Part shown: positions 44,019 through 60,615 of the stretch, piece after piece | Numbering within the stretch: the first letter of the stretch is position 1 | How the letters are laid out: every line of letters begins with the position of its first letter | Source of the DNA: Glutamicibacter protophormiae | GTDB taxonomy: Bacteria; Actinomycetota; Actinomycetes; Actinomycetales; Micrococcaceae | Length of the DNA: 64,000 nt | Assembly: GCF_014647495.1 (NCBI RefSeq) | Contig: NZ_BMPH01000003.1 | Coordinates: forward strand, 186,001 to 250,000 | Reading direction: 5' to 3' | Notes under the pieces: generated by a model | The model's database searches: none | What the model saw: the letters and a program-made list of their open reading frames with translations, nothing else | Told to the model about the DNA's origin: nothing | Made by a program: the position numbers and the translations under genes

Positions 44019-44630
44019 CTAGGGAAGATCCAGCGAGATGACCGCCATGAAGCCGCGGCCGCTGATGCGCGGCGAATCCTCTTCGCCGCCGATCACGGTG
44101 TCGCGAAGCTCCAGCGCCGACTCGGAGTTCTCGCGCAGGACGCTGGCCTTGCCCTGCAGCAGCACCCCGAACTGGGAGCCGAACAGGTGCTGTTCGCGTT
44201 TCTTCGACAGCTCCACGATGCGCACGTTGCCGCGTACCTTGCCGCTGCGGGTGATGAGGTTCAGCGCCAGGATTTCCCCGGTGGGCAGTGCAGCGGAGGT
44301 GGCCGCTGCGCCGGGGAACTTGAAGGGCCGGTAGATCTCCAGCGCCTGCGAGGCGCCGTCGACGGTGAGTTCGAGCAGCTCCCCGGCGATGACCGTGAGG
44401 GTGCGTTCGCAACCGTCGTAGGGCGTGAAGTCCCCGGCTTTCTCGATGGATGCGACCGAGATCCGCCAGTCCCAACCGCCTTCCGGAGCAGTAGCCAGTG
44501 ATCCGTCATCGGCCAGGATGCCCTTGGCGATTTCCCGGATCTGCCCCTGGGCTGCTCCCCACGGTTTCTTGGGGCTTGAAGAAAGCTGGATCTGAGTTCC
44601 GATGGACAGCGAGGCATTGCTTTGGCTCAT
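44019..44630 (-). CDS. HutD/Ves family protein (paralogue 2)
   Basis: A 203-residue cupin-like protein with a HutD pattern: GGWDWRISVASIEKAGDFTP, YDGCERTLTVIAGELLELTV, ALEIYRPFKFPGAAATSA. The usual front block WKNGGG is altered to KPWGAAQGQIREIA. The gene sits just left of the CoA-transferase of the hut-linked cluster. TAAGCT lies 6 nt before the ATG, suggesting a leaderless mRNA. It might sense an imidazole compound or hut intermediate. Confidence 0.82.
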   Translation of the reverse strand: MSQSNASLSIGTQIQLSSSPKKPWGAAQGQIREIAKGILADDGSLATAPEGGWDWRISVASIEKAGDFTPYDGCERTLTVIAGELLELTVDGASQALEIYRPFKFPGAAATSAALPTGEILALNLITRSGKVRGNVRIVELSKKREQHLFGSQFGVLLQGKASVLRENSESALELRDTVIGGEEDSPRISGRGFMAVISLDLP

Positions 44631-44812: not shown

Positions 44813-46012
44813 CTAGCGGATGCTGGCGCTTCCTTCTGACAGGCCGGTACGCACAGGGCCGGAAATCCATTGCTCCAGCATCTCGTTGTGCTGCCCGAGA
44901 ACCGGAGCCGGCGAGGGAGGCACCGAGCCGGTCAGCCGCAGTGGAGATGCCAACGTCTTGAATCCATCAGATTCCACCGCAACAGTTCCGCGATATACCG
45001 AATGTTCGCTGGCCAAGGCGTCATTGACCGATTGTACCTTCGAGACCGGAACTTGGTGCTCGGAGAGCAAGGCAATCGCCTGGTCGGCGCTGAACGGAGC
45101 CAGAGCTTCTTCCAACGCCGCGCGGAACTCGACCGGGTAGGTGTTGCGCAGCGTCTGTTCCTTGAATCGCTCGTCCTCTAGCCATTCTGGTCGGTTCAGT
45201 GCTTCGGTCAGGCGTGGGAACAGCCGGTCGCCCGCAATAGCAATGGCAATGGAACCGGACCCCGTGGCATAGGTGCTAAACGGAGTCGACATGGCGTGGT
45301 CGTTGCCGCAGGCGACTGGTTCTTCGCCGTGCAGTGCTCGCATGCCAACGGATTCCAAGACCGAGATCAGGCTGTCGAGCATGGCCACGTCGACCTGCTG
45401 GCCCTTGCCGGTGTTGTGCCGCTCGTTGACGGCGGCCAGCGCTGCAATGGCGCCGTAGAGGCCGGGAATGAGGTCGCCCAAGCTGACACCGGTGCGGGTC
45501 GGTTCTCCTCCTGGCCATCCGGTGATCGACATGAGACCGCTCATGGCCTGAGCGATCAAGTCGTAGGCAGGTGCCTTCTGCAACGGCCCGTCCTGCCCGA
45601 AGCCTGAGATGCTCACGATGATCAGGCGGGGATTGATTGCCATGAGATCTTCTGCTGCCAGCCCTAGGCGGGCCATCACGCCGGGGCGGAAGTTTTCAAT
45701 GAGGATGTCCGAGCGGCGCACCAGTTCAAGCAGCTGTTCGCGCTGTTCGTCAAGCTTCAGATCCATGGTAAGGCCGTACTTGCTGCGGTTGAACAGCCGG
45801 TAGTAGGCGGATTCCCCGTTGTACCAGGGGCCGAAATGCCGTGAATCGTCGCCTTCAGGGCTTTCGATCTTGATGACCTCGGCGCCCAGATCGGCCAGGA
45901 TCATGGCGCAGAAAGGGCCGGCAAGAACTCGTGAGAGGTCAAGAACGCGCAGCCCCTCAAGGGAACCAGGGGTGTTCAGCGACGCTGGTTCTGGACGATC
46001 GTTGAGGGACAT
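44813..46012 (-). CDS. Family III CoA-transferase (CaiB/BaiF type)
   Basis: A 399-residue class III CoA-transferase: front block LEGLRVLDLSRVLAGPFCAM, LGAEVIKIESPEGDDSRHFG, ENFRPGVMARLGL, and the catalytic aspartate D151 in APAYDLIAQAMSGLMSITG. It moves CoA from one acid to another. The gene is divergent from the IclR gene and shares a 141-nt gap holding the IclR-type palindrome. AAAGGA lies 8 nt before the ATG at 46012. Relatives act on carnitine, oxalate, glutarate, phenyllactate and others; the substrate is unknown. The link to an acyl-CoA dehydrogenase and hut genes suggests an imidazole acid. Confidence 0.92.
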   Translation of the reverse strand: MSLNDRPEPASLNTPGSLEGLRVLDLSRVLAGPFCAMILADLGAEVIKIESPEGDDSRHFGPWYNGESAYYRLFNRSKYGLTMDLKLDEQREQLLELVRRSDILIENFRPGVMARLGLAAEDLMAINPRLIIVSISGFGQDGPLQKAPAYDLIAQAMSGLMSITGWPGGEPTRTGVSLGDLIPGLYGAIAALAAVNERHNTGKGQQVDVAMLDSLISVLESVGMRALHGEEPVACGNDHAMSTPFSTYATGSGSIAIAIAGDRLFPRLTEALNRPEWLEDERFKEQTLRNTYPVEFRAALEEALAPFSADQAIALLSEHQVPVSKVQSVNDALASEHSVYRGTVAVESDGFKTLASPLRLTGSVPPSPAPVLGQHNEMLEQWISGPVRTGLSEGSASIR

Positions 46013-46116: not shown

Positions 46117-46132
46117 GTCTGGGATTACAGAC
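46117..46132. promoter_or_regulatory. IclR-type operator, copy 1
   Basis: GTCTGGGATTACAGAC, a near-perfect palindrome in the CoA-transferase/IclR gap, ten bases upstream of the -10 of the iclR-like gene, where the -35 would lie. It is identical over 18 bases (TCGTCTGGGATTACAGAC) to copy 2. Repression of both divergent genes is inferred. Confidence 0.8.
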
Positions 46133-46141
46133 TTCTTGGCT

Positions 46142-46147
46142 TACTAT
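46142..46147 (+). promoter_or_regulatory. -10 hexamer of the IclR gene
   Basis: TACTAT lies 6 nt before the ATG at 46154, so the transcript is predicted to start at the start codon. The operator copy 1 overlaps the -35 position. Confidence 0.6.
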
Positions 46148-46153
46148 TGTCGG

Positions 46154-46993
46154 ATGGGAGTGAATAATGCGCCGCAGGTTCCCGCGGCTAAGAATGTGCT
46201 GTCGGTGCTAAGGTATATTGCCGCGCAGGCCGGGCCGGTGGGCGCCGGCGCCATTGTGCGGGATGTCGGTCTGCCTCGCTCCACGACTTACCACCTGTTG
46301 GCAGCCCTGATTGAAGATGGCTTCGTTACGCACCTGCCAGAGGAGCGCAAGTATGCGCTGGGTGTGACGGCCCATGAGCTCGGTTCCGGATATTCGCGTC
46401 AGGCGCCGCTGCAACGTATTGCACGATATCCAATGACTCAGTTAGTGGAGCGCACCAAACGCACGGCGCATCTGGCTATCATGCATGGACGCGACGTCAT
46501 CTACGTCATCGAGGAACGTGCCAAGCGGCAGGCCGACCTAGTGACCAATCCCGGTGTGAGGCTGCCCGCCCACCTCACGGCCAGCGGACGGGCAATGCTT
46601 GCGACTTTTTCCGCTGAACAACTTGCAGCCTTGTATCCTGGCCCGGAAGCCTTCCCTACGAGGTATGAAACCGGGGTACATACCCCTGAAGCGCTCAACG
46701 AACTTCTAGTCCAGATTCGCGCGGTTGGGTATTCGTGGGAGCAGGACGAGGTGACCGAGGGATTTTCATCCATTGCCGTCCCTGTCATGGACCACGCCGG
46801 GCATGCGGTGGCCAGCGTGACACTCACTATTGCTAACAGAGAAAATCTGAATAAAGCTGCAGCATCGCGGAATGCCACTGTGGGGGTTCTTCCCGAGCGC
46901 ACCATACACTTGGAGGATTTGGTCTCCGAGTGGCTACCGCAAGTCACTAGGACCGCGGCCGAAATCTCACGCAGGTTGCGTCCAAGCGGGTGA
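46154..46993 (+). CDS. IclR-family transcriptional regulator
   Basis: A 279-residue IclR protein. N-terminal winged helix: KNVLSVLRYIAAQAGPVGAG, GLPRSTTYHLLAALIEDGFV. The C-terminal effector domain has RLPAHLTASGRAMLATF and VTEGFSSIAVPVMDHAGHAV. IclR regulators sense small carboxylic acids. It lies between a CoA-transferase and a permease/acyl-CoA dehydrogenase pair, and its presumed operator recurs upstream of hutU. The start at 46154 is chosen because it is 6 nt after TACTAT; an in-frame ATG at 46082 would add 24 residues that cross the operator. Confidence 0.92.
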   Translation: MGVNNAPQVPAAKNVLSVLRYIAAQAGPVGAGAIVRDVGLPRSTTYHLLAALIEDGFVTHLPEERKYALGVTAHELGSGYSRQAPLQRIARYPMTQLVERTKRTAHLAIMHGRDVIYVIEERAKRQADLVTNPGVRLPAHLTASGRAMLATFSAEQLAALYPGPEAFPTRYETGVHTPEALNELLVQIRAVGYSWEQDEVTEGFSSIAVPVMDHAGHAVASVTLTIANRENLNKAAASRNATVGVLPERTIHLEDLVSEWLPQVTRTAAEISRRLRPSG

Positions 46994-47035
46994 TGCCACG
47001 AGAAGCCGGCTTAAGCGGAGGGGGAAACGAAAAAG

Positions 47036-47092
47036 ACTTCCGGAGGGTGCCGCGACTTCTTCGGTAAAGAAGTTGCCGCACCCTCCGGAAGT
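47036..47092. terminator. Long bidirectional terminator between iclR and permease genes
   Basis: A 26-bp stem (47036-47061 with 47067-47092) with two mismatches and a five-base loop CGGTA lies between convergent stop codons. Confidence 0.88.
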
Positions 47093-47147
47093 TCCACTTG
47101 CAGTGTTCAGGTCTTGGACGCCGGTGGCTAGGCGCGGTGCGAAGTGC

Positions 47148-48581
47148 CTAGTCCGCTACGCCTGGTGGGAAAACCATTTCTTTGGGAGGGTGCTGGAACT
47201 TGCGGGCCACGGGGTAGTACACCGCAGCAGTCACGACCAGACCGACAATCCATGAAATATCGGCGCCCCCCAAAAGCGCTGTCATCGGCCCGGTGTACAT
47301 CGTCTGGGCGAGAAATGGGATCTGGACCAGCACGCCAACAACGTAGGTGATCAGGGCCGGGACATTCCACTTTCCGTAGCGTCCCTTTGGATCATAGAGC
47401 GCGGGAATGTCGACCTTCTCCTTGGAAATCAGATAGTAATCAACCAGGTTGATTGAGCTCCACGGAATGAAGACCATCAGCAGCATCAGCACGAAGTTCT
47501 TGAAGTTGGAAATGAATTCTTCGGTCGCCAGGATCGCAATCAGGATTGAAATGGTGATGAATCCGATGACGTAGGCGAAACGAACCCACGGGGCAAAGCG
47601 CAGCTGGCGGGTAAACGCGCTGACAGAGGTCAGGATCGTCATGTATCCGCCGTAGGCGTTGAGAGTATTGACCGTTAGCTTGCCGACGACGATCACTACG
47701 TACATCAATACGGCAATGGCTCCTCCGCCGGCAAGGTTGCCCACGAAGCCGATTTGCTGGTCGAGGAAATCCTGGCCGGGAGGCATCGCGATCGAAGCGA
47801 ACAGTGCGCCAAGAATCATTGACCACTGCGCGCCGAGGACCGAGCCCGAGAAACAACCGAGGAAAGTTCGATGTGCCGGGGTGTCGGCAGGGAGGTAACG
47901 GGAGTAGTCGGCCACGTACGGTCCGTAAGTCAGCTGCCATCCGGCGCTCAGTGAAATGGAGAGCAGGAAGGTCGGGATGGCGAAGCCTTCGGGGCTCAGG
48001 ATCGCGCCGATGTCGTTCGCCATGAATAGCCGAATACCCAAATAGGTGAAGCCGATGATCCCCACGGTCGTAGAAATGCGCCCCAGAGCGTGAATGTACT
48101 TGTAGCCGAGCGTTGCGACCAGAACGGTCAGTGCTCCGAAGACGACAAGACCGACAATCGGGTTTCCGGTGGGAATGATCTGGTCGACGGCCTGGCCGGC
48201 GAGCACAGCACCGGTTGCCGCGAAGCCCAGGTACATCACGATGACGAGCACCAGTGGAAGCACCGCTCCATAGACGCCGAACTGTGCGCGGCTGGAAATC
48301 ATCTGAGGCAGACCCAACTTAGGCCCCTGCGCGGCATGCAGAGCCATCACTGCACCGCCTAGAACATTGCCAATGAGCAGTCCGATGATTCCCCAGAACG
48401 CGTTGGCACCGAAGATCACCGAAAGGGACCCGGTGACGATGGCAGTAATTTGCATATTGGCACCAAACCACAGGGTGAACTGACCAAACGGCTTTCCGTG
48501 GCGTTCGCTTGCAGGCACAAAATCGATGCTGCGGCGCTCCACCGCCGGCCCGGTTGTGTTGACTGTTTCGATCCTTGACAT
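47148..48581 (-). CDS. NCS1-family permease (cytosine/purine/hydantoin type)
   Basis: A 477-residue transporter with 12 predicted helices. Family blocks are FGQFTLWFGANMQITAIVTG near the front, GPKLGLPQMISSRAQFG and GWQLTYGPYVADYSRYLP, which line the substrate site in CodB/Mhp1-like proteins. NCS1 carriers import nucleobases, hydantoins, allantoin or related heterocycles. Here the neighbours suggest an imidazole compound such as urocanate or imidazolepropionate. GGAGA lies 8 nt before the ATG at 48581. It is divergent from the acyl-CoA dehydrogenase gene and shares operator copy 2. Confidence 0.92.
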   Translation of the reverse strand: MSRIETVNTTGPAVERRSIDFVPASERHGKPFGQFTLWFGANMQITAIVTGSLSVIFGANAFWGIIGLLIGNVLGGAVMALHAAQGPKLGLPQMISSRAQFGVYGAVLPLVLVIVMYLGFAATGAVLAGQAVDQIIPTGNPIVGLVVFGALTVLVATLGYKYIHALGRISTTVGIIGFTYLGIRLFMANDIGAILSPEGFAIPTFLLSISLSAGWQLTYGPYVADYSRYLPADTPAHRTFLGCFSGSVLGAQWSMILGALFASIAMPPGQDFLDQQIGFVGNLAGGGAIAVLMYVVIVVGKLTVNTLNAYGGYMTILTSVSAFTRQLRFAPWVRFAYVIGFITISILIAILATEEFISNFKNFVLMLLMVFIPWSSINLVDYYLISKEKVDIPALYDPKGRYGKWNVPALITYVVGVLVQIPFLAQTMYTGPMTALLGGADISWIVGLVVTAAVYYPVARKFQHPPKEMVFPPGVAD

Positions 48582-48678
48582 GTGTCGTTCTCCAAATTTT
48601 TGGGAAGCCACATTCGGTTGTGGCTCATCAAGCATGCTTTGAAAAGTTGGCAAGATTATGAAGTGTGACACGAATCTC

Positions 48679-48694
48679 GTCTGGGATTACAGAC
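48679..48694. promoter_or_regulatory. IclR-type operator, copy 2
   Basis: GTCTGGGATTACAGAC, identical to copy 1, in the 207-nt gap between the divergent permease and acyl-CoA dehydrogenase genes, 98 and 95 bases from their start codons. Confidence 0.8.
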
Positions 48695-48788
48695 AAACGA
48701 AGCTTTTCTGTGATCCAGGCCATTGATGGTCTGAAAGTAAGGCTATGTTCGATGGAGAACGGCCCGACACTTCTTCTGGAGGATCACA

Positions 48789-49988
48789 ATGACAACCAAC
48801 GCTTCAGCGCCAACTGCTGCCACCGAATTGCCATATGCGGACGGAGACTTCTTCGGCTTCGAGTCCCTCTTGCCAGCCCACGAGCTTGATCGGCTGAACG
48901 CCATCCGCGACTGGGTGGAGGCAGAGGTTCGCCCAATCGCGCAGGACCACTGGAATCGCAGCGAATTCCCGGTCCACCTGATTCCGAAGATCGCCGAGCT
49001 GGACATGATCAGCCCGGTGCGCCGTCAGGGCTACTCCCACCTTCTGGCCGGCATGATCACCGCCGCCATCCACCGCGTCGATGCGTCCTTCGGAACGTTT
49101 TTCAGCGGCCATGACGGACTCTTCACTGGATCGATTGAGCTGCTGGCGTCCGAAGAACAGAAGGCCGCCTGGTTGCCTGACATCTACGCGCTGAAGAAGA
49201 CCGGCGTCTTCGCGATTACCGAACCGCTGGCCGGCTCAGATGTTGCCGGTGGCACACGGACGACCGCCGTACGAGACGGGGACAACTGGATCTTGAATGG
49301 CGAGAAGCGCTGGATCGGCAACTCGACCTTCTCCGACTATGTGCTCGTCTGGGCCAAGGATGTTGCTGACGACCAGGTCAAGGGGTTCCTCGTGGAGACC
49401 AAGACCCCGGGATTTAGCGCAACCCTGATGGAAAACCGCATCGCGCTTCGTGCGGTGCAGAACGCGGATATCGTGCTGGACAATGTAGTGGTACCGGATT
49501 TCTTCAAGCTCGCGAATGCCAACAGCTTCCGCGACACCAACAAGGTTCTGAAGTCCACTCGTGCCACGGTGGGCTGGCAGGCTGTCGGCCTGCAGATGGC
49601 AGCATTCGACGTAGCACGCAAGCATGCGGTGGAGCGACTGCAGTTCGGCAAGCCGATCGCCTCCTTCCAGCTCATCCAGGAACAGCTGGTCACCATCCTG
49701 TCCAACGCACAGGCTTCGATGGGCATGATGGTCCGCCTGGCCCAGATGGAAGACGAAGGCACCAGCCGCAACGAGCACTCGGCGCTGGCCAAGGCGTTCG
49801 TCACCAAGTGTATGCGCGAGAGCGTGGCGCTGGGTCGCAGCATCCTGGGTGGCAACGGCCTGCAGGTCGACTACGAAATTGGCAAGATCTTCTGCGATGC
49901 CGAGGCCATCTACACCTATGAGGGCACTTACGAAATCAACACCCTGGTCGCCGGCCGCGCGATCACTGGGGTGGCGGCGTTCGTCTAG
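48789..49988 (+). CDS. Acyl-CoA dehydrogenase, glutaryl-CoA-dehydrogenase-like
   Basis: A 399-residue flavoprotein dehydrogenase. Features: AITEPLAGSDVAGGTRTTAV, GEKRWIGNSTFSDYVLVWAK, KHAVERLQFGKPIASFQLIQ and the catalytic glutamate E378 in YTYEGTYEINTLVAGRAITG. The C-terminal block is closest to the glutaryl-CoA dehydrogenase group. However, the residue aligned with human Arg94 (mature numbering), which holds the glutarate carboxylate, is Gly102 in VDASFGTFFSG, so glutaryl-CoA is an unlikely substrate. It should oxidise a short acyl-CoA at the alpha-beta bond. GGAGG precedes the ATG. hutU follows after 159 nt. Confidence 0.92.
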   Translation: MTTNASAPTAATELPYADGDFFGFESLLPAHELDRLNAIRDWVEAEVRPIAQDHWNRSEFPVHLIPKIAELDMISPVRRQGYSHLLAGMITAAIHRVDASFGTFFSGHDGLFTGSIELLASEEQKAAWLPDIYALKKTGVFAITEPLAGSDVAGGTRTTAVRDGDNWILNGEKRWIGNSTFSDYVLVWAKDVADDQVKGFLVETKTPGFSATLMENRIALRAVQNADIVLDNVVVPDFFKLANANSFRDTNKVLKSTRATVGWQAVGLQMAAFDVARKHAVERLQFGKPIASFQLIQEQLVTILSNAQASMGMMVRLAQMEDEGTSRNEHSALAKAFVTKCMRESVALGRSILGGNGLQVDYEIGKIFCDAEAIYTYEGTYEINTLVAGRAITGVAAFV

Positions 49989-50018
49989 CCGGTCGGCGCT
50001 TCGGCGCATCATCGAATC

Positions 50019-50034
50019 GTCTGGGATGCCAGAC
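50019..50034. promoter_or_regulatory. IclR-type operator, copy 3, upstream of hutU
   Basis: GTCTGGGATGCCAGAC, a perfect 6-bp-arm palindrome and close match to copies 1 and 2 (differs at two central positions). It lies between the acyl-CoA dehydrogenase stop and the hutU start, 113 bases before the ATG, and suggests hutU is controlled by the same IclR regulator. Confidence 0.75.
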
Positions 50035-50147: not shown

Positions 50148-51827
50148 ATGAGCTTCACCCAGCACGACCCCTCACGGGTCATCCGCGCACCTCGCGGCAC
50201 CACCCTCACCGCCAAGTCCTGGGCCACCGAAGCCCCGCTGCGCATGCTGATGAACAACCTCGACCCGGAGGTCGCCGAGCGTCCCGAAGACCTGGTGGTC
50301 TACGGCGGCACCGGCCGCGCCGCCCGCTCCTGGGAAGCCTACGACGCCATCATCAAGACCCTGACCGATCTGGAAGAGGACGAGACCCTGCTGGTCCAGT
50401 CCGGCAAGCCGGTCGGCGTGTTCAAGACCAACAAGTGGGCGCCGCGCGTGCTGATCGCCAACTCGAATCTGGTGGGCGACTGGGCCACCTGGCCCGAGTT
50501 CCGCAAGCTCGAGGCCGAGGGCCTGATGATGTACGGCCAGATGACCGCCGGTTCCTGGATCTACATCGGCACCCAGGGCATCCTGCAGGGCACCTACGAG
50601 ACCTTCGCCGCCATCGGTGTCAAGCGATTCAACGGGACCCTGGCCGGCACCTTGACCCTGACCGGCGGCTGCGGCGGCATGGGCGGCGCCCAGCCGCTGG
50701 CCGTCACCCTCAACGGCGGCGCCTGCCTGATCGTTGACGTCTCCGAGGACCGCCTGCGCCGCCGCATGGGCAAGCGCTACCTGGACGACGTGGAGCTGGA
50801 CCTGGACGCAGCCGTTGCCAAGGTCACCGCAGCCAAGAACGAAGGCCGCGCACTGTCCGTGGGCTACGTCGGCAACGCCGCCGAGGTCTTCCCTGAACTG
50901 CTGCGCCGCCAGAAGGCCGGCGAGATCTCCATCGACATCGTCACCGACCAGACCTCGGCCCACGACCCGCTGTCCTACCTTCCGGTGGAATACACCGTGG
51001 AGCAGTGGGATGCCGAGGCGAAGGCCGACGAAATCGGCTTCACCAAGAAGGCCCAGGCCGCCATGGCCGCCCACGTCGAAGCCATGGTCGGCTTCCAGGA
51101 CATCGGCGCCGAGGTCTTCGACTACGGCAACTCGATCCGCGACGAGGCACGCAAGGGCGGCTACATGCGGGCCTTCGAATTCCCGGGCTTCGTTCCGGCC
51201 TACATCCGCCCGCTGTTCTGCGAGGGCCTTGGCCCGTTCCGCTGGGTGGCTCTGTCCGGCGATCCGGAGGACATCCGCGTCACCGACGAGGCGCTCAAGG
51301 AGCTCTTCCCGGAAAACGAGCACCTGCGCCGCTGGCTCGATGCGGCCGCCGAGCACGTTGAATTCGAGGGTCTTCCGGCCCGCATCTGCTGGCTGGGCTA
51401 CGGCGAGCGCCACAAGGCCGGCCTGCTGTTCAACAAGCTGGTCGCCGAGGGCAAGGTCTCCGCACCGATCGTGATCGGCCGCGACCACCTGGATTCCGGT
51501 TCGGTGGCCTCCCCGTACCGCGAAACCGAAGCCATGAAGGACGGCTCGGACGCGATTGCCGACTGGCCGCTGCTCAACGCCATGACCGCGGTGTCCTCCG
51601 GTGCCAGCTGGGTTTCGCTGCACCACGGCGGCGGAGTCGGCATTGGCCGCTCCATCCACGCCGGCCAGGTCTCGGTGGCCGATGGCACCGAGCTGGCAGC
51701 GGCCAAGCTCGAAGCGCTGCTGACGAACGACCCGGGCATGGGTGTCATCCGCCACGTGGATGCCGGCTATGAGCGCGCGGTAGATGTTGCCAACGAGCGC
51801 GGCGTGCGCATTCCGATGGCAGAGTAG
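50148..51827 (+). CDS. hutU: Urocanate hydratase
   Basis: A 559-residue urocanase. NAD-binding signatures [13 protein letters not shown] (residues 174-186) and [12 protein letters not shown], catalytic region DQTSAHDP, and [13 protein letters not shown] are visible. It hydrates urocanate to imidazolone propionate in the cytoplasm, using NAD as an electrophile. AAGGAA lies 8 nt before the ATG at 50148, which decides the start against an in-frame GTG at 50043. It is the first of four hut genes in this direction; histidine ammonia-lyase is absent from the window. Confidence 0.97.
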
Positions 51828-51986: not shown

Positions 51987-53258
51987 GTGAGCACAGTAAA
52001 TTCCCTGCTAGCCGCGATCAGCGGCGAGGGCCGCGACGCCAAGCGCGGCGGCTACTCGCGCCCGGTCTACTCGGACGCCGAGATTACGCTGCGCGAGTGG
52101 TTCATTGCCGAAGCCTCCGTGCGTGGGCTGGAGGTGTCCACGGATGCCAACGGCATCATCTGGGCTTGGTGGGATCTTCCGGGGTCCGCCGGGGACGACG
52201 CCTCGCGCAAGGGTTCGCTGGTCACCGGCTCCCACCTGGACTCCGTGCCCGGCGGCGGCGCCTTCGACGGCCCGCTGGGCGTGGCCAGCGCGCTGGCCGC
52301 CTATGACGTGCTGGCCGCCCGGGAAGCCTCCGGCGAGCTGGTGCGAAACCGTGCCCTGGCGCTGGCCGTCTTCCCGGAGGAGGAAGGCTCGCGCTTCGGG
52401 GTGGCCTGCCTGGGTTCCCGGCTGCTCAGCGGCGCCATCGACCCGGTGAAGGCGCTGAACCTGCGCGACGCGGAGGGCAACACCTTCGCTGACATCGCCG
52501 CCGCCAACGGGCTGGACCCGGCGCGCATGGGCCGCGACGAGAAGGCCCTGGCCCGGATCGGCGACTTCATCGAGCTGCATGTGGAGCAGGGCCGCGGGCT
52601 GAACACCGAACAATACACCGACGCCGCCGGCCGCGGGCCGGCCGTCGCGGTGGGCAGCTCCATCCTTGGCCACGGCCGCTGGCGGCTGAGCTTCAGCGGC
52701 CAGGGCAACCACGCCGGCACCACCTTGATGATCGACCGCGCCGATCCGATGGTGGCCGCCGCCCAGCTGGTGCTCAAGGTCCGCGAGATCGCCACGGCGC
52801 AGCCCGACGCCCGCGCCACCGTGGGCCGGCTGGAGCCGGTGCCCGGCGGCACCAACGTGATCGCCTCCCGCGTGGACATCTGGCTGGACGTGCGCCACCC
52901 GGACGACGCGGTCACCGCCCTGCTGGTGGAGAAGATCCACGGCCAGGCGCAGAAGATCGCCGCCTTCGAGGGCTGCTCCGTGGTGCTGACCGAGGAATCG
53001 CTCTCCGGCACCGTGCACTTCGACGCCGCGCTGAGCGCCTCGCTGGAACGCTCCGTGCACCGACTGGTTCCCGACGCCCCGGCGCTGCCCACCGGCGCCG
53101 GCCACGACGCCGGCGTGCTGGCCGCCTACCTGCCCACCGGCATGCTGTACGTGCGCAACCCTTCGGGCATCAGCCACTCGCCGGAAGAATACGTGGAAGA
53201 CGCCGATGCCGAGGCCGGCGTGCTGGCCTTGGCCGACGCCCTGGAGGACCTGCTGTGA
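51987..53258 (+). CDS. M20-family amidohydrolase (allantoate amidohydrolase/N-carbamoyl amino acid hydrolase type)
   Basis: A 423-residue zinc amidohydrolase of the AllC/HyuC/beta-ureidopropionase group. Metal-binding motifs are TGSHLDSVPGGGAFDGPLG, VFPEEEGSRFG and ELHVEQGRGLNTE; the dimer domain has GQGNHAGTTLMIDRADP. Members cleave N-carbamoyl or ureido groups. It sits between hutU and hutF and overlaps hutF by 4 nt, so it is part of the histidine pathway; hydrolysis of N-formylglutamate in place of HutG is the obvious idea. GTG start at 51987 follows AAAGGA. Confidence 0.9.
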   Translation: MSTVNSLLAAISGEGRDAKRGGYSRPVYSDAEITLREWFIAEASVRGLEVSTDANGIIWAWWDLPGSAGDDASRKGSLVTGSHLDSVPGGGAFDGPLGVASALAAYDVLAAREASGELVRNRALALAVFPEEEGSRFGVACLGSRLLSGAIDPVKALNLRDAEGNTFADIAAANGLDPARMGRDEKALARIGDFIELHVEQGRGLNTEQYTDAAGRGPAVAVGSSILGHGRWRLSFSGQGNHAGTTLMIDRADPMVAAAQLVLKVREIATAQPDARATVGRLEPVPGGTNVIASRVDIWLDVRHPDDAVTALLVEKIHGQAQKIAAFEGCSVVLTEESLSGTVHFDAALSASLERSVHRLVPDAPALPTGAGHDAGVLAAYLPTGMLYVRNPSGISHSPEEYVEDADAEAGVLALADALEDLL

Positions 53259-54484
53259 GCGGAAAAACCACTACCGTTCCGGCGCCGGTCAACGCGCACT
53301 CGCACGCCTTCCACCGGATCCTGCGCGGCCGCACCCACCAGGGGGACAACGGCGGAGCCGGGAACTTCTGGACCTGGCGCGAACAGATGTACGCCGCCGC
53401 CGCCGGGCTCACCCCGGCCGGCTACGAGCAGCTGGCCACCGCGGTCTTCGCGGAAATGGTCGTCAACGGCTACAGCGCGGTGGGGGAGTTCCACTACCTG
53501 CACCACGACGCCACCGGTGCACCCTACGCCGGGACAGATGAGCACGGCATGGAGATCGCGCTGGGCCGCGCGGCGAAGGCCGCGGGCATCCGCCTGGTCC
53601 TGCTGGACACCTGCTACCTGCAGGGCGGGCTGGACGCGCTGGGCAACGCCATCGAGCTGAACGAAACCCAGCGGCGCTTCACCGACGGGGACGCCGCCGG
53701 CTGGCTGGCCCGCCACGCGCGGCTGCGCGAGGCCCTGGCCGAGCTGGACGCAGGGGAAGGGCTGCTGAGCCTGGGAGCCGCCATCCACTCGGTGCGCGCG
53801 GTGCCGCCAGCCCAGCTGGAAGCCATCGCCGCCGGGCTGGACCCTGCCTTGCCGCTGCATGTGCACCTGTCCGAGCAACCGGCCGAGAACGCGTCCTGCC
53901 AGGCGGCCTTCGGGCTGAGCCCGACCGGGCTGCTTGAACGCCACGGCCTGCTGGCCCCGCGGCTCTCGGCCGTGCACGCCACCCACCTGAGTGATGCGGA
54001 CATCGCCGCGCTGGGCGCCGCCGGCGCGGGCATCGTCATGTGCCCCACCACCGAGGCGGACCTGGGCGACGGGATCGGCCCGGCCCGCGAACTGGCGGAC
54101 GCCGGCGCCGTGATTTCACTGGGCAGCGACCAGCACGCGGTGCTGGACCCCTACCTGGAGCAGCGCGCCCTTGAACACGGCGAGCGGCTGCGCAGCGGGC
54201 AACGCGGGCGCTTCTCCCCGGCGGAGATCTCCGCCGCCGCCCGCGAGGGCGGTCTGCGCTCGCTGGGCCTGGCGGAGAACGAGGACCACCTCGTGGTGCG
54301 CACCGACACCATGCGCACCTCCGGGTCGCGCACCGCCCAGCTGCCGCTGAGCGCCACCGCCGCAGATATCGTGCAGGTCCACGTCAATGGCAAGCTGGTA
54401 GCCAGCAATGGCCTGCACACCACGCTGGGAGACCCGGCGGATTTGTACGCAGCATTCTTCACCGAGTACCCGGAGTTTTCATGA
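53255..54484 (+). CDS. hutF: Formimidoylglutamate deiminase
   Basis: A 409-residue amidohydrolase-superfamily enzyme. Family marks: NAHSHAFHRILRGRTHQG near the front (zinc histidines), VHLSEQPAENASC, HATHLSD and SLGSDQHAVLDPY. HutF releases ammonia from N-formimidoyl-L-glutamate to give N-formyl-L-glutamate. Starts GTG in the M20 stop (GTGA) and overlaps hutI by ATGA, so all three are translationally coupled. Confidence 0.92.
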   Translation: MSGKTTTVPAPVNAHSHAFHRILRGRTHQGDNGGAGNFWTWREQMYAAAAGLTPAGYEQLATAVFAEMVVNGYSAVGEFHYLHHDATGAPYAGTDEHGMEIALGRAAKAAGIRLVLLDTCYLQGGLDALGNAIELNETQRRFTDGDAAGWLARHARLREALAELDAGEGLLSLGAAIHSVRAVPPAQLEAIAAGLDPALPLHVHLSEQPAENASCQAAFGLSPTGLLERHGLLAPRLSAVHATHLSDADIAALGAAGAGIVMCPTTEADLGDGIGPARELADAGAVISLGSDQHAVLDPYLEQRALEHGERLRSGQRGRFSPAEISAAAREGGLRSLGLAENEDHLVVRTDTMRTSGSRTAQLPLSATAADIVQVHVNGKLVASNGLHTTLGDPADLYAAFFTEYPEFS

Positions 54485-55680
54485 GCACCACACTGATCAC
54501 CAACATCTCCGAGGCCTTCCTCTCGGACGCGGCGCACACCCTGATCGAGAACGCCGCCATCCTCATCGACGGCGAGGACATCGCATGGGTCGGCGAAGCG
54601 GAGCACGCCCCGGAAGCCGATTCCGTGATCGACGCCGGGCAGCGCGCCGCGCTGCCGGGCTGGGTGGACTCCCACAGCCACCTGGTCTTCGCCGGGGACC
54701 GCAGCCGCGAATTCGTGGCCCGCATGGCGGGGCAGGACTATGCCGCCGGCGGCATCGCGGTGACCACCAAGGCCACCCGGGCCGCCTCCGACTACGACCT
54801 GACCCGGCTCGTGATGGGACGGGCCGCGGAAGCGCTGGCCGGCGGCACCACCTATCTGGAAACCAAAACCGGCTACGGGCTGAACGTGGAGGAAGAAGCC
54901 CGCCACGCACGCATCGCCTCCACCGTGGTCGACCAGGTCACGTTCCTCGGAGCCCACCTGGTCCCCGCGGACATGGACGCCCAGGAGTACATGGACCTGG
55001 TGTGCGGCGAGATGCTCGAACGCGTGCTTCCCTTCGTGCAGTTCGCCGACGTGTTCTGCGAGCGCGGCGCCTTCGACGAGGCGCAGTCGCGCCAGGTGCT
55101 TGCCGCGGCGAAGGACGCCGGGCTCGGGCTGCGCGTGCACGGCAACCAGCTGGGTCCGGGCCCCGGCACCCAGCTGGCCGTGGAATTCGGCGCGGCCAGC
55201 GTGGACCACGTGAACTTCCTGGACGCAGACGACGTCGCGGCGCTCGCCGGATCCTGGGCGGACTGGGATGCCCGGGCCCGTACCGGCACCGCGGGGACCG
55301 TGGCCACCTGCCTGCCCGCCTGCGACCTGTCCACCCGCATGCCCTTCGCCCCGGGCCGCGAGCTGATCGATGCCGGGGCGCAGATTGCCCTGGCCTCGAA
55401 CTGCAACCCGGGCACCTCCTACACCTCGTCGATGGCCTTCTGCGTGAGCACCGCGGTGCTGCAGATGCACCTGAGCATCGAGGAAGCGATCGTCGCCGCC
55501 ACCTACGGCGGCGCGCTGGCGCTGGGTGTGCAGGATCGTGTGGGAAGCCTGGAAGTGGGCAAGAGGGCGGACATCCAGCTGCTGAACGCCCCGTCCGTGG
55601 CGCATCTGGCCTACCGCCCCGGCATGAACCTCTCCGGTCCGGTCTTCCGGGCCGGGCAGCTTGCGGCGGGGCAAATTTAG
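54481..55680 (+). CDS. hutI: Imidazolonepropionase
   Basis: A 399-residue amidohydrolase that opens imidazolone propionate to formimidoylglutamate. PGWVDSHSHLVFAGDRSREF (metal site), ARMAGQDYAAGGIAVTTKAT, HGNQLGPGPGTQLAVEFGA and NCNPGTSYTSSMAF are typical. It ends the hut operon. Confidence 0.95.
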   Translation: MSTTLITNISEAFLSDAAHTLIENAAILIDGEDIAWVGEAEHAPEADSVIDAGQRAALPGWVDSHSHLVFAGDRSREFVARMAGQDYAAGGIAVTTKATRAASDYDLTRLVMGRAAEALAGGTTYLETKTGYGLNVEEEARHARIASTVVDQVTFLGAHLVPADMDAQEYMDLVCGEMLERVLPFVQFADVFCERGAFDEAQSRQVLAAAKDAGLGLRVHGNQLGPGPGTQLAVEFGAASVDHVNFLDADDVAALAGSWADWDARARTGTAGTVATCLPACDLSTRMPFAPGRELIDAGAQIALASNCNPGTSYTSSMAFCVSTAVLQMHLSIEEAIVAATYGGALALGVQDRVGSLEVGKRADIQLLNAPSVAHLAYRPGMNLSGPVFRAGQLAAGQI

Positions 55681-60512: not shown

Positions 60513-60602
60513 GGCAACTCGCTTCGCGGATCAGGGAAAACAGCCTCTTCAGGCTACCGCATGGCGTCCCGATCGCTGGGTGTCCGCACAGCTTGCGCGG
60601 TC

Positions 60603-60608
60603 TATGAT
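60603..60608 (+). promoter_or_regulatory. -10 hexamer of the CPBP gene
   Basis: TATGAT lies 7 nt before a GTG at 60616. This places the transcription start at the GTG and argues against the in-frame ATG at 60604 that lies inside the hexamer. Confidence 0.6.
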
Positions 60609-60615
60609 CAAAGAC

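Follow-up and report, generated by a model that had tools for sequence, protein, structure and literature searches.

Why should a single palindrome stand in the regulatory gaps of a CoA-transferase gene, an iclR-type regulator gene, a permease gene, an acyl-CoA dehydrogenase (ACAD) gene and the urocanate hydratase gene hutU? The question is raised by a 64-kb stretch of the Glutamicibacter protophormiae genome (assembly GCF_014647495.1, contig NZ_BMPH01000003.1, positions 186,001 to 250,000), referred to here as the window. An earlier note on this DNA had proposed that the palindrome unites catabolic genes of unknown purpose with the histidine utilization (hut) pathway under one regulator. Our analysis makes it probable that the first four genes form an imidazole-propionate block that is wired to the histidine regulon via HutR-type operators. 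Established at the base of this reading are the sites, their conservation, the protein families, the hut linkage in two phyla and the kinship of the regulator to HutR.

Occurrence of the palindrome

The genes of the block, hutU and the sites between them are the following.

44813–46012, minus strand: class III (CaiB/BaiF) CoA-transferase, proposed urocanoyl-CoA:imidazolepropionate CoA-transferase (PF02515, E 2.3e-118)
46117–46132, no strand: HutR-type palindrome 1, GTCTGGGATTACAGAC, in the divergent caiB/iclR gap; covers the iclR -35 position if the start is 46154
46154–46993 (reading frame called from 46082), plus strand: IclR-family regulator, second HutR-type protein (PF09339 and PF01614 over cut-off)
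47148–48581, minus strand: NCS1-family permease, proposed imidazole-carboxylate importer (PF02133, E 9.7e-55 for the longer reading frame)
48679–48694, no strand: HutR-type palindrome 2, GTCTGGGATTACAGAC, in the divergent permease/ACAD gap
48743–48752, plus strand: CTATGTTCGA, a second conserved stretch of the permease/ACAD gap, nearer the ACAD start (gap alignment)
48789–49988, plus strand: ACAD, proposed imidazolepropionyl-CoA dehydrogenase (PF02771, PF02770 and PF00441; N-terminal, middle and C-terminal domains)
50019–50034, no strand: HutR-type palindrome 3, GTCTGGGATGCCAGAC, 114 bp before hutU
50148–51827, plus strand: hutU, urocanate hydratase (TIGR01228, 884.6 bits, cut-off 375)

The 16-base palindrome was searched for as GTCTGNNATNNCAGAC in the genome of 3,833,393 bases and 38 contigs. 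The three copies stand where the earlier note had placed them, each in a regulatory gap, and a preceding TC extends the identity of the first two to 18 bases. At zero or one mismatch the window holds nothing beyond these three, again as claimed. Exact copies in all 38 contigs likewise number three, every one in the window; the genome scan, named beforehand as a check, did not meet scattered unrelated copies. Under a first-order Markov model the expected number of exact copies is 0.003 for the window and 0.19 for the genome, and chance is thereby rejected as the origin of the motif. An origin as a repeat or mobile element is unsupported, there being only three exact copies, each in a regulatory gap.

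Copies with one mismatch also number three in the genome (C18:43745, C2:177919 and C11:126313). The first of these, GTCCGGCATTTCAGAC, lies upstream of hutH, the sole PF00221 gene of the genome. At two mismatches or fewer the motif gives 50 matches per strand versus 30 for the pattern reversed; the 44 sites with two mismatches are therefore mostly noise. One such variant within the window, GTCTATGATCAAAGAC at 60600–60615 upstream of a minus-strand phosphotransferase-like gene (named by eye), is probably a chance match. Two matches to a shorter core, at C3:84995 before an uppS-like gene and at C9:41747 within a transporter-like gene (gene names by eye), lack the outer G...C and were taken as chance.

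The reading frame of iclR called from ATG 46082 is over-extended and takes in the palindrome, and the IclR frames of relatives start just past it. With the start at ATG 46154, TACTAT is found at 46142–46147 and the matching -35 position, 46119–46124 as judged by eye, falls within palindrome 1. The overlap with the iclR -35 noted earlier thus holds for this start. A sigma-70 promoter scan did not list the iclR promoter at 46142–46147. In the permease/ACAD gap the palindrome is 98 and 95 bp from the two gene starts, and TATGTT within CTATGTTCGA may be the -10 of the ACAD gene.

Identity of the motif and the two HutR-type regulators

HutR of Corynebacterium resistens is an IclR-family regulator of histidine utilization, for which Table 1 of PMC8222616, citing Schroder et al. 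2012, gives the motif GTCTGWWATWCCAGAC. The window sites match the GTCTG..AT..CAGAC frame of this motif, not its first W positions. A passage of PMC3350403 places hutR in the hut clusters of ten corynebacterial species compared. By sequence match, then, the palindrome is an already known HutR-type operator, and possible novelty is limited to the genes governed here: the motif of the earlier note is not new, and the gene set under it may still be. As far as the published description allows the likeness to be drawn, C. resistens and the window share the operator frame, the IclR architecture and hut genes as targets. They differ in that the window IclR has diverged, is the second protein of the HutR type in its genome and is encoded in a CoA-transferase/ACAD/permease block; an ordinary HutR is encoded near hutH.

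The gene of this ordinary HutR (C18:40969–41754) is about 2 kb from hutH, and its protein is 44% identical to the window IclR. With the ordinary HutR as a query, matches at E <= 1e-38 turned up in 131 of 394 genomes of the class, up to six first-look candidates being scored per genome. The 30 best-scoring loci of the 131 genomes were taken, one of them the own locus. Within 1.5-kb flanks, hutH is present in 22 of the other 29 and hutU in two; in the remaining five hutH is at most 3.7 kb away and hutU at most 5.7 kb, so that each of the 29 has hutH or hutU no farther than 3.7 kb away. The palindrome occurs at one mismatch or fewer in 16 of the 30 loci (exactly in 11) and not in 14, against a mean of 0.08 and a maximum of six loci for 200 shuffled palindromes. 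This hut linkage and the palindrome enrichment among the best 30 loci are the reasons for taking the contig 18 group as ordinary HutR. The window IclR gene lies near hutU, not hutH, the genome's sole hutH being on contig 18 near the other gene, and is for that reason called HutR-type rather than HutR. At locus L206 a CoA-transferase of 40% identity lies near hutR; its neighbours by eye are an HMG-CoA-lyase-like gene and another IclR-like gene, and it was set aside.

The genome has 16 IclR_C matches. A tree of 58 rows was built from HutR rows, the window IclR with eight relatives and 14 other IclR proteins of the genome. The HutR and window-type rows form one clade (100/100), apart from the 14 other proteins. 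Within the HutR rows the nine window-type rows form a clade of their own (100/100) on a long branch (0.94). Its attachment, at a 93/94 fork drawn open, is to HutR rows from other families and not to the HutR of its own family (99/96), and the HutR rows without it are monophyletic in 0% of 200 bootstrap trees. Given this attachment, the window IclR may stem from the acquisition of a HutR gene and not from a recent duplication. The window IclR and the HutR rows have the recognition region [LIM]PRSxxYxL in common. Upstream of the own hutR no good palindrome was found, the best having five mismatches. The idea that one regulator unites the catabolic and hut genes therefore stands as to the shared operator-like palindrome and fails as to the single regulator, since the genome encodes two HutR-type IclR proteins.

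The block and its sites in close relatives

A scan of species-representative genomes for the CoA-transferase pair returned nine loci. Eight are close (73–84% identity), seven of the eight genomes being labelled Arthrobacter; the ninth, a Marinobacter match of 33%, was set aside. The record named Sporosarcina beigongshangi REN13 (L095, L123, L132) has, at these loci, a GC content of 63–66% and Arthrobacter-like proteins, and may be mislabelled or mixed.

All four block genes are present in each of the eight relatives, with the permease and ACAD genes of Arthrobacter sp. HY1533 about 16 kb from iclR on the same contig. In seven of the eight, hutU is on the contig of the block, at 0.2–1.6 kb from the ACAD gene in five, 4.7 kb in one and about 9 kb in one; in A. 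wenxiniae another reading frame lies between the two genes. The best hutH match is on a contig other than the block's in all eight.

The palindrome recurs in the same gaps, the counts here including the window locus. In the caiB/iclR gap it is found at one mismatch or fewer in eight of nine loci and at two or fewer in all nine. In the permease/ACAD gap the figures are seven and eight of nine, the exception being Arthrobacter pascens with three mismatches. All eight loci with hutU in reach carry it before hutU at one mismatch or fewer. Upstream of hutH it occurs at one mismatch or fewer in five of nine and at two or fewer in eight, A. pascens, where hutU is directly upstream, again being the exception. 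Seven hutH neighbourhoods outside A. pascens contain a hutG-like frame (for two of them the protein was compared with the hutG model), with the palindrome at one mismatch or fewer at the called start in four; one of the three without it is cut at the locus edge. When the gaps are aligned, few stretches are as well conserved as the palindrome, while most flanks diverge. Because relatives have the sites in these three gaps too, the grouping of IclR, CoA-transferase, permease, ACAD and hutU is not due to chance.

The block seems rare, as among the 394 genomes of the class (up to four candidates scored in each) only the own genome has the CoA-transferase at E <= 1e-95. In a family sample of 149 genomes, one of the 148 others has an ACAD at 88% identity, namely A. 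wenxiniae of the eight relatives, and the next is at 74% or less. In two family genomes without a CoA-transferase match, and hence block-free, hutR, hutU and hutH follow one another, which makes it look as though hutU was relocated to the block.

Some relatives have further genes nearby. A HisC-like aminotransferase gene lies 3′ of the permease gene at L095:4024–5136 and L100:7850–8965, and by eye in L125 and L098, the last also with the end of an FAD-linked oxidase. Arthrobacter sp. SDTb3-6 carries a second hut-like set (L129:4369–11450; HutH 42%, HutU 44%, HutI 36%, HutF 43%, M20 63%) beside the normal genes, which perhaps serves another imidazole compound.

Enzymes of the block and the neighbouring hut genes

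The gene order in the window is hutD, CoA-transferase, IclR, NCS1 permease, ACAD, hutU, M20 amidohydrolase, hutF and hutI. The hut genes other than hutU are these.

44019–44630, minus strand: hutD, on the other side of the block (PF05962, E 9.3e-32)
51987–53258, plus strand: M20-family amidohydrolase in the hut operon (NF006770, named allantoate amidohydrolase, 556 bits, cut-off 372)
53255–54484, plus strand: hutF, formimidoylglutamate deiminase (NF006681, 464 bits, cut-off 362; sister model TIGR02022, 339 bits, under its cut-off of 413)
54481–55680, plus strand: hutI, imidazolonepropionase (TIGR01224, 316.8 bits, cut-off 298)

The third-position GC content (GC3) of the four block genes is 0.63–0.79, and that of the hut genes runs from 0.82 (hutD) to 0.92. 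By GC3 and position, the four genes look like foreign DNA placed between hutD and hutU. The window hutU is the genome's only urocanate hydratase match at E <= 1e-20, and its protein falls short of the thiourocanate models (690 and 640 bits, cut-offs 880 and 930). The M20 amidohydrolase probably hydrolyses N-formylglutamate after HutF. HutF and the amidohydrolase are found here at 51987–54484, versus a formimidoylglutamase (HutG) gene near hutH in relatives.

The CoA-transferase has its best match among solved sequences in YfdE. Its seven NCBIfam matches listed are all under cut-off; the scores against named models, in bits and cut-off, are 283/522 for oxalate, 258/750 for glutarate, 265/700 for mesaconate and 132/413 for carnitine. 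Asp180, which we take to be the catalytic Asp, aligns with the Asp of YfdE and is kept in the window protein and the seven relatives printed. The permease matched two solved sequences, both of the hydantoin permease Mhp1 and both weakly (E 5e-7).

The best matches of the ACAD among solved sequences are Arabidopsis ACX4 and glutaryl-CoA dehydrogenases. An Arg of the three glutaryl-CoA dehydrogenases aligned (one of them ‘putative’), presumably the binder of the second carboxylate of glutaryl-CoA, is Gly in the window ACAD, and glutarate is disfavoured as a substrate for lack of that Arg. SFGTFF was read in eight of the nine cluster ACADs, L101 being left out of this reading. YEGT, whose Glu is presumably the catalytic one, is present at all nine loci.

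The block would work in the manner of the CaiB/CaiA carnitine system and of FldA/AcdA-type aryl-propionate chemistry, where a saturated acid is converted to its 2-enoic acid, or the reverse, by a class III CoA-transferase together with an acyl-CoA dehydrogenase, and CoA moves between product and substrate. The window proteins differ from the carnitine pair, scoring 132 bits versus the 413 of L-carnitine CoA-transferase and 111 versus the 540 of crotonobetainyl-CoA dehydrogenase.

CoA-transferase/ACAD pairs in Pseudomonadota

With the CoA-transferase as a query we found a Paracoccus alcaliphilus plasmid with the order hutI-hutH-hutG-CoA-transferase-ACAD-hutU, which is the same in two Paracoccus plasmids. 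The P. alcaliphilus CoA-transferase is 45% identical to that of the window over 361 residues, and the ACAD 29% over the 286 residues aligned. The best models of the two Paracoccus proteins, both under cut-off, are succinate-glutarate for the CoA-transferase and acryloyl-CoA reductase for the ACAD. The Paracoccus operons thus hold the same pair of activities, directly before hutU. They differ in having a UTRA-domain (HutC-like) regulator gene and an amino-acid ABC transporter, whereas the window has IclR and NCS1.

A plasmid search with the Paracoccus ACAD gave 14 records at E <= 1e-100, of which 12 were read, the other two being P. yeei records. The CoA-transferase gene adjoins the ACAD gene in all 12. 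The pair is inside a hut operon in four (P. alcaliphilus, P. aminophilus, Thioclava and Pseudorhodobacter), and a HutC-like regulator gene is near it in three more (two Sinorhizobium, one Mesorhizobium); the Mesorhizobium regulator, annotated hutC, is 31% identical to that of Paracoccus. Among 398 sampled Pseudomonadota genomes, with up to four candidates scored per genome, eight have a Paracoccus-type ACAD at E <= 1e-90. The CoA-transferase is adjacent in all eight, and hutU is within 10 kb in six. By chance placement we estimate that well under one of the eight would lie near hutU (20 kb of several Mb each).

In Gemmobacter (L146) and Mesorhizobium (L150) the pair is accompanied by a HisC-like gene, an FAD-oxidase gene and a Rieske gene, which gives the look of a broader locus for the salvage of imidazole acids. 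Rhizobium and Sodalis plasmids (L142:8404–12866 and L144:8454–12854) carry an aromatic amino acid ammonia-lyase, a CoA-transferase (44–48% identical to that of the window), a 3-hydroxyacyl-CoA dehydrogenase and an enoyl-CoA hydratase in a row, which looks like CoA-dependent breakdown of an aryl-acrylate.

Proposed pathway and regulation

The window block has one CoA-transferase and one dehydrogenase, with no hydratase, hydroxyacyl-CoA dehydrogenase or thiolase, and would therefore make one double bond. Urocanate is the only 2-enoic acid of the hut pathway, and operators or operon are shared with hutU; the conversion of imidazole propionate to urocanate is for these reasons the simplest proposal. 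The purpose of the catabolic genes, left blank in the earlier note, is thereby narrowed to urocanate supply, most likely from imidazole propionate.

In this proposal, a catabolic block was inserted between hutD and hutU and joined the histidine regulon by way of HutR-type operators. Imidazole propionate (dihydrourocanate) would enter the cell by the NCS1 permease. The class III CoA-transferase would transfer CoA to it from urocanoyl-CoA, and the ACAD would oxidize the resulting imidazolepropionyl-CoA to urocanoyl-CoA. The latter would hand its CoA on in the next turn and be released as urocanate, which HutU, HutI, HutF and the M20 hydrolase would take to glutamate. The window IclR would act on the three palindromes, repressing its own promoter and controlling the block and hutU in answer to an imidazole acid, and the ordinary HutR near hutH may share the palindromes. 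Several parts of this are predictions from sequence: that the block was inserted, that the regulator binds the sites, which effector it answers to and with what sign it acts, and what the permease and the two enzymes take as substrates. The cover of the -35 by the palindrome, if the start is 46154, suggests autorepression of iclR. Activation is also possible at the ACAD gene and hutU, because the sites are upstream, 95 bp from the ACAD start and upstream of its possible -10, and 114 bp before hutU.

Alternative explanations

Several observations weigh against the proposal. Both the CoA-transferase and the ACAD are below the cut-off of every curated NCBIfam function model. ACADs of 63–74% identity are encoded in 19 fetched loci of other family genomes, where the permease query was out of frame, and all 19 are without the block or hut genes nearby; the ACAD subfamily is therefore not specific, and these homologues, considered as candidate orthologues, were set aside. 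The block of A. pascens has no hutU beside it; a hutU fragment is found there next to hutH, where a contig ends. The A. pascens sites are weak as well, with two mismatches in one gap and three, the level of shuffled sequences, in the other. Five of the 12 plasmid loci have no hut gene in their 8-kb flanks, three of them with a LysR gene adjoining the CoA-transferase, and two of the eight sampled Pseudomonadota loci have no hutU in the stretch read. A HisC-like aminotransferase follows the NCS1 permease in some relatives and occurs in two Alphaproteobacteria too, hinting at further or other imidazole acids. Finally, the two HutR-type proteins are not separable by motif, and the reader of the predicted sites could be either.

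In another reading, compatible with the proposed enzymology, the palindromes are read by the ordinary HutR near hutH alone, and the window IclR has a different signal and other target sites. In favour of this, the motif goes with HutR, the conserved regulator of hut genes, and the window IclR clade has its long branch; but the gene of the second IclR itself has a site in nine of nine loci at two mismatches or fewer, its recognition region is like that of HutR, and the own hutR is without a good upstream site. We regard this reading as unlikely. As to the enzymes, the block might handle a different imidazole or aryl propionate, such as methylated imidazolepropionate, which the same CoA chemistry would feed into the hut pathway at the level of urocanate or close to it. 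The HisC-like aminotransferases, glycolate-oxidase-like FAD enzymes and Rieske demethylase-like proteins beside the pair in some loci would fit such a substrate, as would the CoA-transferases of 44–48% identity adjoining aromatic ammonia-lyases, hydratase and 3-hydroxyacyl-CoA dehydrogenase. The window block, however, has no demethylase, and HutU scores well on the urocanate hydratase model and under the thiourocanate cut-offs. This reading seems distinctly unlikely.

It is quite improbable that the CoA-transferase and ACAD serve to break down some acid with no tie to this pathway, for instance glutarate or one of short chain, with only hutU and the regulator linked to histidine and the neighbourhood incidental. 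The affinity of the ACAD to ACX4 and glutaryl-CoA dehydrogenase and the succinate-glutarate model of the Paracoccus CoA-transferase point that way; yet in two phyla, and with dehydrogenases that differ greatly, the pair goes together with hut genes, the operators are common to the block and the hut genes, and the Arg presumed to bind glutaryl-CoA is absent from the window ACAD. The enzymes could also run backwards and form imidazole propionate from urocanate to dispose of electrons, much as urocanate reductase would but with CoA. Against the acryloyl-CoA reductase model of the Paracoccus ACAD and the urocanate reduction by UrdA reported in gut bacteria (PMC13320830) stand the company of oxidative hut genes, the importer in the window and the mainly respiring habit of Arthrobacter and Paracoccus; this direction appears highly improbable. 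The oxidation of imidazole propionate to urocanate under HutR-type control remains our preferred reading.

Relation to known systems and significance

A known system acting on the same metabolite pair, urocanate and imidazole propionate, is the urocanate reductase UrdA. UrdA makes imidazole propionate from urocanate (PMC13320830), whereas the window route would be CoA-dependent and oxidative. Imidazole propionate is equated with dihydrourocanate in PMC11872695; four phrases for its degradation are absent from that source, and ‘metabolism of ImP’ occurs once, in a heading. PMC8444586 gives dihydrourocanate as a product of bacteria including Eggerthella, and PMC7676231 reports that imidazole propionate, a microbial histidine product, impairs glucose metabolism. 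The portions of the literature covered treat bacterial formation of imidazole propionate and do not name genes for its removal. In the open-access literature, with most subscription journals outside the scope, we found no description of the pathway, its CoA esters or its gene set. In older biochemical work, Coote and Hassall reportedly described in 1973 the use of imidazolylpropionate by Pseudomonas testosteroni. What looks new here is the controlled block of CoA-transferase, NCS1 permease, ACAD and second HutR-type IclR.

We lean slightly towards the wider view that the pair, as urocanoyl-CoA:imidazolepropionate CoA-transferase and imidazolepropionyl-CoA dehydrogenase, represents a gene-defined aerobic breakdown of imidazole propionate that recycles one CoA and was assembled at least twice with very different dehydrogenases, in Actinomycetota within a hut regulon having a second HutR-type regulator and in Pseudomonadota within hut regulons beside HutC-type regulators. 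Imidazole propionate is a gut-microbe product linked to diabetes. If the proposal is true, the block would provide enzymes and a candidate sensor for this compound, together with marker genes for finding its degraders. It would also exemplify regulon growth by the gain of a block that brings a second copy of the regulator type plus its operators.

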